A DNA stretch of 64,000 nt from assembly GCF_000153765.1 (NCBI RefSeq), contig NZ_DS022296.1, positions 1 through 64,000 on the forward strand, written 5' to 3'. The notes under the pieces were generated by a model that saw only the letters and a program-made list of their open reading frames with translations, searched no databases and was not told where the DNA came from. Of this stretch, positions 14,727-19,790 are shown in pieces; position 1 is the stretch's first letter, and the number at the start of each line of letters is the position of its first letter. Source of the DNA: Mariprofundus ferrooxydans PV-1 (GTDB lineage Bacteria; Pseudomonadota; Zetaproteobacteria; Mariprofundales; Mariprofundaceae). Both the position numbers and the translations under genes were made by a program.

Positions 14727-17700
14727 ATGCGTAATCTGATCGCTTTTTTTGTTAAACGCGGCGTACTGGTCAACCTGACCTCAATTATTCTGCTGACCGG
14801 CGGCATCTATGCCGCTATGAACATGCAACGCGAAGCATTCCCCAGCATCAATTTCGATATCATTGCCGTCTCCGGCGCCTATCCGGGTGCTGCTCCCAGA
14901 GAAGTAGAACGTCTGATGCTGGCGCCGATTGAGCAGGAGCTGAAGGGTGTCGACGGCATTAACGTCATCCGCTCCACGGCCTATTCAGGCACCATGCAAA
15001 TGACCATTGAGGTCGACCCCAATTTCAAGGATCGAGCACGTTTGGTCTCCGACATCCAGCAGGCTATCAATCGGGCCGATCTGCCCGCCGACCTGCCTGC
15101 CGACCCTGTTATTATGGAGGTAAAATCGGAGCAGGCACCGGTGCTCACATTCTCCATCTCCGGTAATTTCCAGCCACTGGAACTCAAGCACCTGAGCAGC
15201 GCTATCGAAGATGATGTACGCAATATCGGCGGTGTCGCCAATGTCTTTGTGCAGGGGGACCTGAAAGAGGAAATTCGCATTGTGCCCGATCCGGTCAAAA
15301 TGCGCAGAAACCGGGTCTCGGTCAATGATATTATCGCACTGGTTAAAGGATGGAATATCAATGCGCCCGGCGGCCGCCTTAAAGCGCATGATGGTCAAAG
15401 CATTATTCGCATCACCGGTGAGTTCAGCTCGGCAACAGATGCCGGGAATCTGGTACTGCGCGCCAATGAACAGGGGCAGTCCCTGTATCTGAAAGATGTC
15501 GCAAAAGTAACTGAAACACTCGAGCGCCCCTATAAATATGTCGGCGCCAAAGGTGAGCCGGCCATTACCATGATCGTGGTCAAAAAAGGTGACGCCGACA
15601 TTATCAACCTGGTAGACCGCGTACGCGCCTACCTGGCCACTATCCCCAAAAATTACGGCGCGGGTGTGCATGTCAGCGCCTATAATGACCTCTCCACGAT
15701 TACCCGTCTGAGGCTGGGCGTGCTGACTAATAATGGCATGATCGGTCTGGCGCTGGTACTGGTACTGCTGATGCTCTTCCTGCGTCCGGCTGTGGCACTG
15801 ACCACCGCCTGGGGACTGCCTATTATCTTCTTCTCCGGTATTGCCGTACTTTATATCACCGGTATTACGCTGAACCTGCTGGTCATGTTCGGCTTTATTA
15901 TGGTACTCGGCCTGATGGTTGATGACGCTATCATCATCGGTGAAAATGCGACCTATCACATGGAGAAAGGCCTCTCGCCGGAAGAGGCTGCCATCGAAGG
16001 CACTTACGAGCTGATCGGACCGGTCACGGCCACGGTACTAACCACAGTCGTCGCCTTTCTGCCGTTAATGTTTATGGACGGCATTATCGGTAAATTTATC
16101 GCCTCGATTCCGGTTGTCGTGGTTGTACTACTGACATTCTCATGGTTTGAGGCGATTTTCATACTGCCCAACCATATCCGCGACGTTGCCAACGCGAATA
16201 AACACCCGAAAGAGCGCATGCTGTTCATCTGGATCACTAATATTTACACATGGCTGCTCGAAAAGGCCGTGAAACTGCGCTACCTCACAATCCTGATTAC
16301 CATCGCAGGACTGCTGGGCTCCTTCGCACTGGCATCGACCATGAAATTTCAGTTATTCCCGTCCGGAGCAGAGAGCACCTTCTATCTGAGGGTAAATATG
16401 GCGACCGGTACAACACTGGAAGAGATGCGCAATGCGCTTAAATCGCTGGATGTCGAAGTACGCAAGCGTATTGATCCGACTCTGCTGGAAACCACCACCA
16501 TGATCGCCGGTGAAAACAGTGCCGACCAGCGCGAAGCACTAAAGCAGATCGGCGATCGCTTTGGTTTCGAGCGGGTTATTTTGACACCCTTTACCGAACG
16601 CAGCGTCAAAGCCTACGACGTCATGGGCAGGCTCGAAAAAGAGATACCGCCGCTGTTTCCGAACATGGAAATCAGCTTTGCCATGGAGAGATCGGGGCCA
16701 CCTGTCGGACGCGCCCTGCAGGTGGAGCTCACCGATGCGGATGAAGCCACCATGACACGGGTGGCAACACGGTTGATTGCGATGCTGGACAACATCAAGG
16801 GCGTTTATGCTGTGGAGAGCGACCTGGAGCCGGGCGATCCCGAGATTCGCATTGTCATGGACAGAAGCCTTGCCGCTTATGCCGGCATTGATCTGGCAAC
16901 TGCCAGTACCCATATCCGTGCAGCCTTCGATGGCCTGCGCGTATCCACAATTAAACGCGGCAAGGAAGAGATTGATGTCACCATCCGTTATCCCGATCGC
17001 GCCCAGCATGATATCAACACGCTGATGAATCTTGAAATTCCGAATAAAACCGGAGGATTGGTACCGCTCCACCGGATTGCGCACCTGGTACACAAGGCCG
17101 GCACCAGCAGTATTCGCCACAAGGATGGCCGGCGCATCATCAATGTCTCGGCCGAAGTGAATCAGAAAGATATCACATCCAAAGAGGTTAACGCCCTGAT
17201 CAAGAAGCGCAGCAGCGAATGGCTCGGTGATGATGCCGGGAAAATACGTGTTAATTACGGCGGTGAGGAGGAGAAAACACAGGAGTCTGTCAGAGGCCTT
17301 GTTTTCAGTTTTGTGTTTGCCCTGTTGGGCATCTTCGCCATTCTGGCCGTTCAGTTTAACCGCATCGGCTATCCGATTCTGGTGATGCTGGCCATTCCAT
17401 TCGGCATTATCGGTATAATTGTCGGTTTTTTCCTGCATGGGGCGCCGATCTCATTCATGGCGATGATGGGTTTTGTGGCGCTCACCGGCGTGGTCGTCAA
17501 TGCCTCACTGGTCATGGCCGTTTTCATCCAGCGACAGATTCTTGATGGCGTACCGTGGCGGCAGGCCATCATTGAGAGCGGCAGACGTCGTCTGCGCGCG
17601 GTACTGCTGACCGCGATTACTACGGTTGTAGGCCTGTTGCCAACCGCCTACGGATGGGGTGGCTTTGATCCGTTCGTCGCTCCCATGGCGTTGGCACTCT

Positions 17701-17819
17701 CGTGGGGACTGATGTTCTCTACCGTCATAACCCTGTTTTCAATACCGGCAGCACTTGGTATCGCTTTGGACTGTAAATATATGCTACTACGCCTGTTCAG
17801 CATCAAACAGAAAGGTTAA
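14727..17819 (+). CDS. RND-family efflux permease
   Basis: A 1030-residue inner-membrane proton-driven pump. The N-terminal helix is followed by a large periplasmic loop, six helices, a second loop and six more helices, as in the AcrB/MexB superfamily. The proton relay pair is seen in GLMVDDAIII in helix 4, and the duplicated half has FVALTGVVVNASLVM. The protein starts with MQREAFPSINFD, typical of the broad permease subfamily rather than AcrB itself. No periplasmic adaptor (HlyD/AcrA type) gene is adjacent, which is unusual. Confidence 0.9.
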   Translation: MRNLIAFFVKRGVLVNLTSIILLTGGIYAAMNMQREAFPSINFDIIAVSGAYPGAAPREVERLMLAPIEQELKGVDGINVIRSTAYSGTMQMTIEVDPNFKDRARLVSDIQQAINRADLPADLPADPVIMEVKSEQAPVLTFSISGNFQPLELKHLSSAIEDDVRNIGGVANVFVQGDLKEEIRIVPDPVKMRRNRVSVNDIIALVKGWNINAPGGRLKAHDGQSIIRITGEFSSATDAGNLVLRANEQGQSLYLKDVAKVTETLERPYKYVGAKGEPAITMIVVKKGDADIINLVDRVRAYLATIPKNYGAGVHVSAYNDLSTITRLRLGVLTNNGMIGLALVLVLLMLFLRPAVALTTAWGLPIIFFSGIAVLYITGITLNLLVMFGFIMVLGLMVDDAIIIGENATYHMEKGLSPEEAAIEGTYELIGPVTATVLTTVVAFLPLMFMDGIIGKFIASIPVVVVVLLTFSWFEAIFILPNHIRDVANANKHPKERMLFIWITNIYTWLLEKAVKLRYLTILITIAGLLGSFALASTMKFQLFPSGAESTFYLRVNMATGTTLEEMRNALKSLDVEVRKRIDPTLLETTTMIAGENSADQREALKQIGDRFGFERVILTPFTERSVKAYDVMGRLEKEIPPLFPNMEISFAMERSGPPVGRALQVELTDADEATMTRVATRLIAMLDNIKGVYAVESDLEPGDPEIRIVMDRSLAAYAGIDLATASTHIRAAFDGLRVSTIKRGKEEIDVTIRYPDRAQHDINTLMNLEIPNKTGGLVPLHRIAHLVHKAGTSSIRHKDGRRIINVSAEVNQKDITSKEVNALIKKRSSEWLGDDAGKIRVNYGGEEEKTQESVRGLVFSFVFALLGIFAILAVQFNRIGYPILVMLAIPFGIIGIIVGFFLHGAPISFMAMMGFVALTGVVVNASLVMAVFIQRQILDGVPWRQAIIESGRRRLRAVLLTAITTVVGLLPTAYGWGGFDPFVAPMALALSWGLMFSTVITLFSIPAALGIALDCKYMLLRLFSIKQKG

Positions 17820-17875
17820 CAAGCTTTAATGACCGGTTAACAAGAGCATCATAGCGCGCCCCTACTGTATTGCGT

Positions 17876-17952
17876 GTCTGGTGTCCCCCTCCTCCCTCCC
17901 TTTGGACATCAGGCCCAGACAAAAAGGCTCCGTTATACGGAGCCTTTTTTTG
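17876..17952 (+). ncRNA. candidate small RNA 1, pyrimidine-loop hairpin plus terminator
   Basis: An 11-bp stem pairs 17876-17886 with 17904-17914, including two G-U pairs. It encloses a 17-nt loop of only C and T (CCCTCCTCCCTCCCTTT), which is complementary to Shine-Dalgarno sequences. A strong terminator follows at 17923-17952. The stem is nearly identical to that of candidate 2. A weak -10 (TACTGT at 17863) would start the RNA at the stem, but the promoter is not resolved. It could also be only an elaborate terminator of the RND operon. Confidence 0.6.
17923..17952 (+). terminator. rho-independent terminator
   Basis: AAAGGCTCCGT (17923-17933) pairs with ACGGAGCCTTT (17937-17947) around a 3-nt loop, and the T-run continues to 17951. 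The A-run on the other side makes it usable in both directions. Confidence 0.9.
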
Positions 17953-18160
17953 TTGCACTTGCACATACTTACCTCCCACTACCCCTGCAGCTCATCCACT
18001 TTCTTTCCGACTTTGTGTGAGCTGGCGCACAGATCCTGTGATGCTATCAGGCATTCTTAATGCCTGTACCGGAAGCAAATCAGTTCGACTGTTTAAAGTT
18101 GTACGACATAGATCCGATAGTTATTGCTAAATAGCTTTATTAAACCTGACTATTCCCCTC

Positions 18161-18235
18161 GGTCTGGCGTCAACTCCCCCCTTCCCCTCGACGTCAGACC
18201 AATAAAAGGCCCTGCAATGCAGGGCCTTTTATTTT
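18161..18235 (+). ncRNA. candidate small RNA 2, sibling of candidate 1
   Basis: A perfect 11-bp stem pairs 18161-18171 with 18190-18200, with an 18-nt pyrimidine-rich loop at 18172-18189 (AACTCCCCCCTTCCCCTC). A terminator follows at once. The stem core matches candidate 1 except for one base pair, which changes from T-A (17882/17908) to C-G (18168/18193), so pairing is kept. A possible -35 TTGCTA (18124) and a weak -10 near 18147-18153 would place the RNA start at the stem. Confidence 0.6.
18204..18235. terminator. bidirectional rho-independent terminator
   Basis: AAAAGGCCCTGC (18204-18215) pairs with GCAGGGCCTTTT (18219-18230), followed by ATTTT. The A-run on the other side means it can also end the antiporter transcript coming from the right. 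Confidence 0.9.
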
Positions 18236-18266
18236 AATTCAAAACTCACCAATCGTCATCTGAACA

Positions 18267-19661
18267 TCAGTGTAAACCGGCCTCTTCCTCTTCCCGTACC
18301 TCTCTGGCAAAAGCTTCCTTATTCACTGCAATAATCGCCAGCAGAATGCCGGAGTAGATAAACGTTGAGAGCAGAACAACACCGATCACCACAGCCTTGA
18401 ACATCTCCAGGTGCTCGAAACCAACAGGAATCATCATTAGCATCACGATAGAGAGTCCACCCTTGATGCCGGCAAAGGTCAGTATGCCCCACCAACGAAA
18501 ATTGACGTTGCTCATGCGCGTGGTCCGATTGGTGATCACGGCAAACTTGGCCATCATCAGCGCGCGAATAATCGTTGTCGCAACAAACATGGCGAGGATT
18601 TCCGTTTTGTAATGCCAAAGCAGTGACAGATCAACTATTTCAGCCATTGCCACAAACAGAATCGTATTAGCCACCAGAGCCAGCAGTTGCACATCCTCCT
18701 TGGTACGCACATGCCTGTCCCGCTCTTCGATAGAGATACGAATACGTCCGAGCACATTGGCAATCATGTTACGTGAAGAGGGTTCATTTTGCGCCTCCTG
18801 CTGTATGCACTCCACATCGTCACCCAGCCGGGCGTCCTCAGCCTCGATACTGCGGGTCATCAAATGGTGAATCGTAATGGTCGCAAAAATACAACTGAGA
18901 ATACCGGACAAGTGCATATGGGAGTGCGAACCAAACAGGTTAAGCAGCGTATAAAAGTGCTCCGACAATTCAAATGCGCCATAGCCGGCGATGATGATCA
19001 TCATCATTTCGGCAATCCGGTTTTCCGTGGTCTTCAGTGCGGCAATGCCGAGCAGGCCGATGACAAAACCAAACAACGCCGAGCCCAGCACAACAATCAG
19101 ACTGGTTTCAGTCACATATGCCGTGGAAATTTCACCACCATCCAGAGCATACAGGCCGATAAAGACAAAAACGATCAACGCAGTGGCATCGTTGAACAGA
19201 CTCTCACCTTCAGCCAGAATTTTAAGCTTGTGGGGCAGCTCAAACTTGGAAAAAATGCTGACAACCGATACGGGATCTGTTGCCAGTACCATAGCGAACA
19301 ACACGATGATGGCCGCAACCGACAAATGATACTGGCCAAATAACCAGTCGGCGGTAAAAATCGCCAGCACAACTGATAGCCCAACCGCCACCACCGCCAG
19401 GTAAAACAGGCTTAAACCGTGCTCCTTCAGGTCCGACAGCTTCAATTCCAGAGAATCGGCAATCAGCAGTATCGGTAGCAAAAAAATAACCAGCTCGGCA
19501 AAATGCTCCGTATCACCGGTCATGATAGGCACCTGTTGAAACAGGTAATGCACCAGAAAAGAGAGCCCGATCAAACCAAGCGGCGAAGGCAGGCTGAGCT
19601 TGTCTTCCAGTTGCAGCGCCAGATAAAGAATGACTGCGATTACCAGCAATGTCGTGATCAT
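18267..19661 (-). CDS. Na+(K+)/H+ antiporter, CPA1 type
   Basis: A 464-residue inner-membrane protein with about 12 helices. The CPA1 signatures are present: ATDPVSVVSIF, EGESLFNDATALIVF with the conserved Asp, and a late GIKGGLSIVMLM stretch. A cytoplasmic loop rich in charged residues lies near 285-330 and the C-terminus is acidic (EEEEAGLH). It would exchange Na+ or K+ for protons, useful in a salty habitat together with ectoine synthesis. The start at 19661 is set by GGGAG. The reading from 19703 adds an unlikely soluble stretch. Confidence 0.88.
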   Translation of the reverse strand: MITTLLVIAVILYLALQLEDKLSLPSPLGLIGLSFLVHYLFQQVPIMTGDTEHFAELVIFLLPILLIADSLELKLSDLKEHGLSLFYLAVVAVGLSVVLAIFTADWLFGQYHLSVAAIIVLFAMVLATDPVSVVSIFSKFELPHKLKILAEGESLFNDATALIVFVFIGLYALDGGEISTAYVTETSLIVVLGSALFGFVIGLLGIAALKTTENRIAEMMMIIIAGYGAFELSEHFYTLLNLFGSHSHMHLSGILSCIFATITIHHLMTRSIEAEDARLGDDVECIQQEAQNEPSSRNMIANVLGRIRISIEERDRHVRTKEDVQLLALVANTILFVAMAEIVDLSLLWHYKTEILAMFVATTIIRALMMAKFAVITNRTTRMSNVNFRWWGILTFAGIKGGLSIVMLMMIPVGFEHLEMFKAVVIGVVLLSTFIYSGILLAIIAVNKEAFAREVREEEEAGLH

Positions 19662-19790
19662 CAATAACTCCCTGCTATTACCACCAATGTCATCTGCCGC
19701 CACAGGTGCATTGGCAACTCAACTTATGACAAACATGCATTCACGCGGCACGCGCAATTATTACGCCAATTCCCCGTAAAAACATAAGAC

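Follow-up and report, generated by a model that had tools for sequence, protein, structure and literature searches.

The intergenic region between an AcrB-type RND pump gene (14727-17819, + strand) and the convergent gene of a Na+/H+ exchanger (antiporter; 18267-19703, - strand) of Mariprofundus ferrooxydans PV-1 carries two hairpin-plus-terminator modules, M1 and M2, and raises the question of whether these are genes for small RNAs (sRNAs) and, if so, of which kind. Coordinates refer to the window, the whole stretch of 64,000 nucleotides that was analysed. The initial annotation had described the modules as a pair of sibling sRNAs with anti-Shine-Dalgarno (anti-SD) loops, and both, each with a strong terminator, were indeed found where it had placed them on the + strand.

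The whole M1 module spans 17876-17951 (+ strand). Its stem-loop at 17876-17914 (GTCTGGTGTCC-CCCTCCTCCCTCCCTTT-GGACATCAGGC), delimited by folding, covariance-model matches and covariation, consists of an 11-bp stem and a pyrimidine loop of 17 nt that includes an exact copy of the anti-SD 9-mer CCUCCUCCC, with the core CCUCC. An intrinsic terminator (hairpin and T-run) follows at 17921-17951 (+ strand), as seen from the fold and from the conserved covarying helix 4. The M2 stem-loop at 18161-18200 (+ strand; GGTCTGGCGTC-AACTCCCCCCTTCCCCTC-GACGTCAGACC), deduced from its fold and from an alignment of seven positional counterparts, also has an 11-bp stem, closing an 18-nt loop with the core CCCCCCUUCCCC and without CCUCC; the anti-SD character ascribed to both loops holds for M1 and not for M2. 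The M2 terminator (18201-18240, + strand) is nearly symmetrical, as apparent from sequence and fold, and is strongly conserved among M2-type copies. Folding z-scores against dinucleotide shuffles were -7.3 for the M1 module and -10.9 for the M2 module, and the window contains 2 hairpins with C-rich loops, versus a mean of 0.1 in Markov-resampled windows.

A compensatory difference between the two stems, T-A (17882/17908) in M1 and C-G (18168/18193) in M2, had been taken as a sign of selection on RNA structure. The pair was confirmed, and the covariation in relatives goes well beyond it. The alignment comprised 82 distinct rows, of which one is a weak match on the opposite strand; standard pairs occupy 97% of cells, and changes on both sides occur somewhere in 22 of the 23 pairs. 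Double-change cells numbered 250, versus 54 in shuffles, and pairing fell to 38-55% in slid controls; fitting the alignment to the model favours structure, and the shuffled and slid controls both lie far below the observed values.

A DNA search of relatives detected the module in many genomes, at times in tandem, and these genomes fall together in the genus and family to which that of the window belongs. Covariance model R1 was used first, and then R2, which combines promoter and stem-loop. The search of relatives with such a model, proposed earlier as a check, recovered the M1 family in 72 of 78 Mariprofundales genomes, including all 39 of good quality (R2), with 1-6 copies per genome; M. erugo and M. 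micogutta are among the species in which loci were detected. No R2 match was obtained in 321 sampled other Pseudomonadota, the large searches having been run with Infernal's stricter filters, which may miss weak relatives elsewhere. The sole R1 match outside the order (genome G368) is a GC-rich repeat without a C-rich loop and does not belong to the family; R1 matches below about 42 bits are mixed, with many opposite-strand terminators and some true divergent siblings. Neither the modules of the window nor 12 homologous loci gave a match at or above the gathering threshold in Rfam 15, and no paper describing them was found in the literature searched, which agrees with the earlier remark that they had no prior description. 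Judged from sequence, the M1 family is an undescribed sRNA family, specific to Mariprofundales as far as sampled, and its structure, promoter motif, terminator and copy number are defined at the same level.

Five copies are present in M. ferrooxydans PV-1. One is M1 itself (C2:17815), beside the RND pump gene, and the other four lie between ilvC and an aminotransferase gene (C3:1028160), near uvrA (C3:1288232), adjoining tex (C4:1194351) and between hisS and ffh (C4:1399160). M1 has siblings, then; it is its pairing with M2 that did not stand, because M2 is divergent and lacks both the promoter of the family and CCUCC. As the siblings adjoin unrelated genes, their arrangement argues for action in trans and not in cis. 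The copy at C4:1194351 and its counterparts in relatives (loci L232, L210 and L211) represent a sub-type with a second small hairpin whose loop, UCCUCCUC, is anti-SD-like; this hairpin is a possible step toward the multi-hairpin RNAs of the cuckoo type.

While the stems vary, CCUCCC in the loop of the conserved stem is kept in 86 of 86 promoter-bearing copies, a set chosen partly for C-richness. Homologues that keep the terminator and lose the pyrimidine loop, an outcome which the initial annotation had set against its own reading, did not occur. The pyrimidine run of the loop measures 12-29 nt (median 19), and the exact 9-mer is present in 23 of the 86 copies, M1 among them. A family with several copies, in which a single loop motif is strongly conserved while the stems vary freely, would fit a protein-binding site equally well, the C-rich loop then acting as a sponge or scaffold for an RNA-binding protein, in the manner of CsrB-type RNAs with G-rich loops. 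This is improbable, given that strong SD sequences are matched exactly by the complement of the conserved core, that LhrC RNAs with CUCCC motifs have been shown to pair (PMC4132741, PMC5880928) and that no candidate binding protein was identified here. The same C-richness could matter at the level of DNA, if the G-rich complement of the loop formed a G-quadruplex affecting transcription. Four runs of at least three C occur in 41 of the 86 copies, but the remaining 45, M1 included, do not fit, versus CCUCC in all 86, and the compensatory stem changes, the terminator and the oriented promoter point to RNA; a G-quadruplex function is scarcely credible. The function preferred here is pairing of the loop with SD sequences.

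Upstream of M1, four direct repeats with an 11-bp period (17815-17852, + strand), a predicted OmpR/PhoB-type site, were recognized by a position weight matrix (PWM) and by their fixed register in homologues: GTTAA at 17815, TTAAT at 17826, TTAAC at 17837 and ATCAT at 17848, the first overlapping the RND pump stop codon. With a PWM score of 28.9 bits, this is the only site in the window above 9 bits. A predicted -10 element, TACTGT (17863-17868, + strand), aligns with the conserved TAATGT/TATAGT of homologues, and the position of the promoter places the predicted transcription start at about 17875-17876. The four-repeat site lies about 22 bp before the stem, in fixed register and followed by the -10 element, in 75 of 82 copies, with the consensus ATAAA-N6-TTAAT-N6-TTCAY-N6-MTCAY. 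Searching nine genomes with the repeat pattern alone disclosed additional siblings. A relaxed pattern gave 16 sites in the PV-1 genome, of which five score 26-30 bits, each preceding a C-rich sRNA, and the others score below 9. Every site of at least 16 bits in 1.2 Mb of scanned sequence lies before a family sRNA, the scanned sequence being mostly flanks of family loci and the matrix having been trained on the same loci.

With a conserved promoter, a predicted start and a terminator, M1 has the layout of an independent sRNA gene, as originally proposed. The modules might instead be 3'-end elements of the neighbouring genes, either processed 3' UTRs or double-hairpin terminators, since they sit between convergent genes and the nearly symmetrical M2 terminator abuts the antiporter stop codon. 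The conserved promoter that M1 has of its own, and the siblings beside the unrelated ilvC, uvrA, tex and hisS/ffh, make this explanation very unlikely overall; M2 itself may be such an element. M2 has no four-repeat promoter, and its match to R1 is partly due to its presence in the training set. In six relatives the counterparts at this position show related stems, for the most part like AGATCTGGCACC, and loops that mostly carry CTTCCC/CTTCCCC units; their terminator is very conserved, and the upstream sequence is not clearly common among them. M2 is best regarded, on these alignments, as a divergent relative of M1 at the same locus, and its terminator probably also ends the convergent antiporter mRNA. 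A stem similar to this nearly palindromic terminator (18201-18240) recurs at C4:834246. Inspection by eye also disclosed a sigma-54-like spacing upstream of two M2-type copies, which is absent from the other M2-type copies.

For M1, read as an sRNA gene, the promoter bears on the nature of the regulator. An 11-bp direct repeat before the -10 element is typical of OmpR/PhoB-type response regulators, and the repeats of the sRNA promoters resemble a site of this type. They are not the organism's own Pho box: the pst/phoB regions carry TGTCAY-N5-TGTCAY instead, and no sRNA-motif site above 9 bits was present in them. Zetaproteobacterial Pho boxes in phoB-pstS regions (L191-L203) have this TGTCAY-N5-TGTCAY form, close to that of E. 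coli. At L293 (C3:1125500-1131500) a CpxA/CpxR-like pair is divergent from a CpxP/Spy-like gene, and the repeat between the Cpx-like divergent genes is GTAAA-N6-GTAAA (reverse complement TTTAC). Control by Cpx is unlikely, because none of repeats 2-4 of the sRNA site ever has a T as its third base. No site of the sRNA type was found at the CopR-like, PmrA/PhoP-like or Cpx-like response-regulator loci examined.

The Hfq profile PF17209 gave no match over its cut-off in 13 Mariprofundales genomes, and TIGR02383 gave none in 78; the searches returned only three weak fragments (17-18 bits) in unrelated-looking frames, and the positive controls matched in E. coli, B. subtilis and others. As neither profile matched while the controls did, Hfq seems to be absent or unrecognisable in Mariprofundales. 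For Zetaproteobacteria, the literature searched yielded no paper dealing with sRNAs or with Hfq.

Several known systems share parts of this design. The csRNAs of S. pneumoniae are five sibling sRNAs induced by one response regulator (CiaRH regulon) through a CiaR box, the 11-bp-period direct repeat NTTAAG-N5-TTTAAG, which precedes the -10 element by about 10 nt; they have an SD-complementary stretch, and streptococci are without hfq (PMC3091779). The Mariprofundales sRNAs are alike in their multiple copies, the 11-bp-period promoter repeat, SD complementarity and the failure to find Hfq, but the complementary stretch of csRNAs is unpaired between two stem-loops, whereas here it is a C-rich hairpin loop. 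The CiaR box is not found either, the repeats being of TTMAY type and in four units; a G after the A occurs in 0 of repeats 2 and 3 and in 11 of 75 of repeat 4. The csRNAs belong to unrelated bacteria, and no sequence relationship is claimed. LhrC1-5 of Listeria monocytogenes are five copies that all require one response regulator (LisRK); they bind the SD region through CU-rich motifs (CUCCC) that are redundant, and Hfq is dispensable for their stability and for lapB regulation (PMC4132741, PMC5880928). Each LhrC RNA has three CU-rich sites, including the terminator loop, whereas the Mariprofundales RNAs normally have one long C-rich loop, and the host of LhrC, unlike that of the present family, belongs to the Firmicutes.

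The closest likeness in the loop is to the cuckoo-type RNAs SmelA075 and SmelA099, with hairpin loops carrying the anti-SD motif CCUCCUCCC on variable stems (PMC3927594), since this motif equals that of M1. The related CcsR1-4 of R. sphaeroides are processed from a precursor that also carries the DUF1127 gene ccaF1, with an RpoHI/RpoHII promoter (PMC10253847). Cuckoo and CcsR RNAs have several C-rich hairpins each, whereas those of Mariprofundales have one, with their own terminator and their own promoter of response-regulator type. Membership was rejected on hairpin number and on gene context: there is one C-rich hairpin and a terminator without CCUCCUCCC, and co-transcription with DUF1127 as for CcsR is not seen, the neighbours being the RND pump gene, ilvC, uvrA, tex and hisS/ffh. 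NgncR_162/163 of Neisseria are neighbouring sibling sRNAs that obstruct ribosome-binding sites and in this way repress mRNAs; they have three stem-loops and are Hfq-bound (PMC9973317), compared with a single C-rich hairpin and a terminator in Mariprofundales, where Hfq was not found. Because the CiaR box, the several CCUCCUCCC hairpins and the DUF1127 co-transcription that define such families are not found, the M1 family appears to be a separate one working like them, and the comparison indicates that the Mariprofundales sRNAs are most likely convergent with csRNAs, LhrC and the alphaproteobacterial cuckoo/CcsR RNAs.

It is proposed that an OmpR/PhoB-type response regulator would bind the four 11-bp-spaced repeats before each copy, and that this one regulator would switch on all sibling copies together. 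Transcription would start at the foot of the stem and end at the terminator, and in the resulting RNA, about 75-110 nt long, the stem would present the pyrimidine loop with CCUCCC; this loop would pair with the G-rich SD regions of a subset of mRNAs and block ribosome binding without Hfq. Duplex energies of the loop with 54 approximate window genes cover a wide range, the best being -26.7 kcal/mol at 12172-11570, and largely track ordinary SD strength (correlation 0.68). As the energies follow SD strength, the expected targets would be mRNAs with long G-rich SDs. For the M1 family, the class of regulator, expression and the block of translation are what we infer from the genomes. M1 is likely one of five response-regulator-induced, Hfq-independent, trans-acting anti-SD sRNAs, with M2 a neighbouring divergent module.

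In the literature searched, there appears to be no description of sRNA biology for Zetaproteobacteria, which oxidise iron in marine settings. A broader, tentative and rather doubtful extension is that an order apparently without Hfq mounts a post-transcriptional response through 1-6 sibling anti-SD RNAs under a dedicated regulator with essentially all its promoters at sRNA genes, as the RNA-only output of a two-component system. The promoter motif of the sRNAs offers a handle for finding this regulator and its signal. If the proposal is true, the family, order-wide, with a uniform promoter of two-component type and with Hfq not found, would add another, apparently independent instance of the streptococcal and Listeria design, which points to long C-rich loops controlled by response regulators as a recurrent route to Hfq-free riboregulation in trans.
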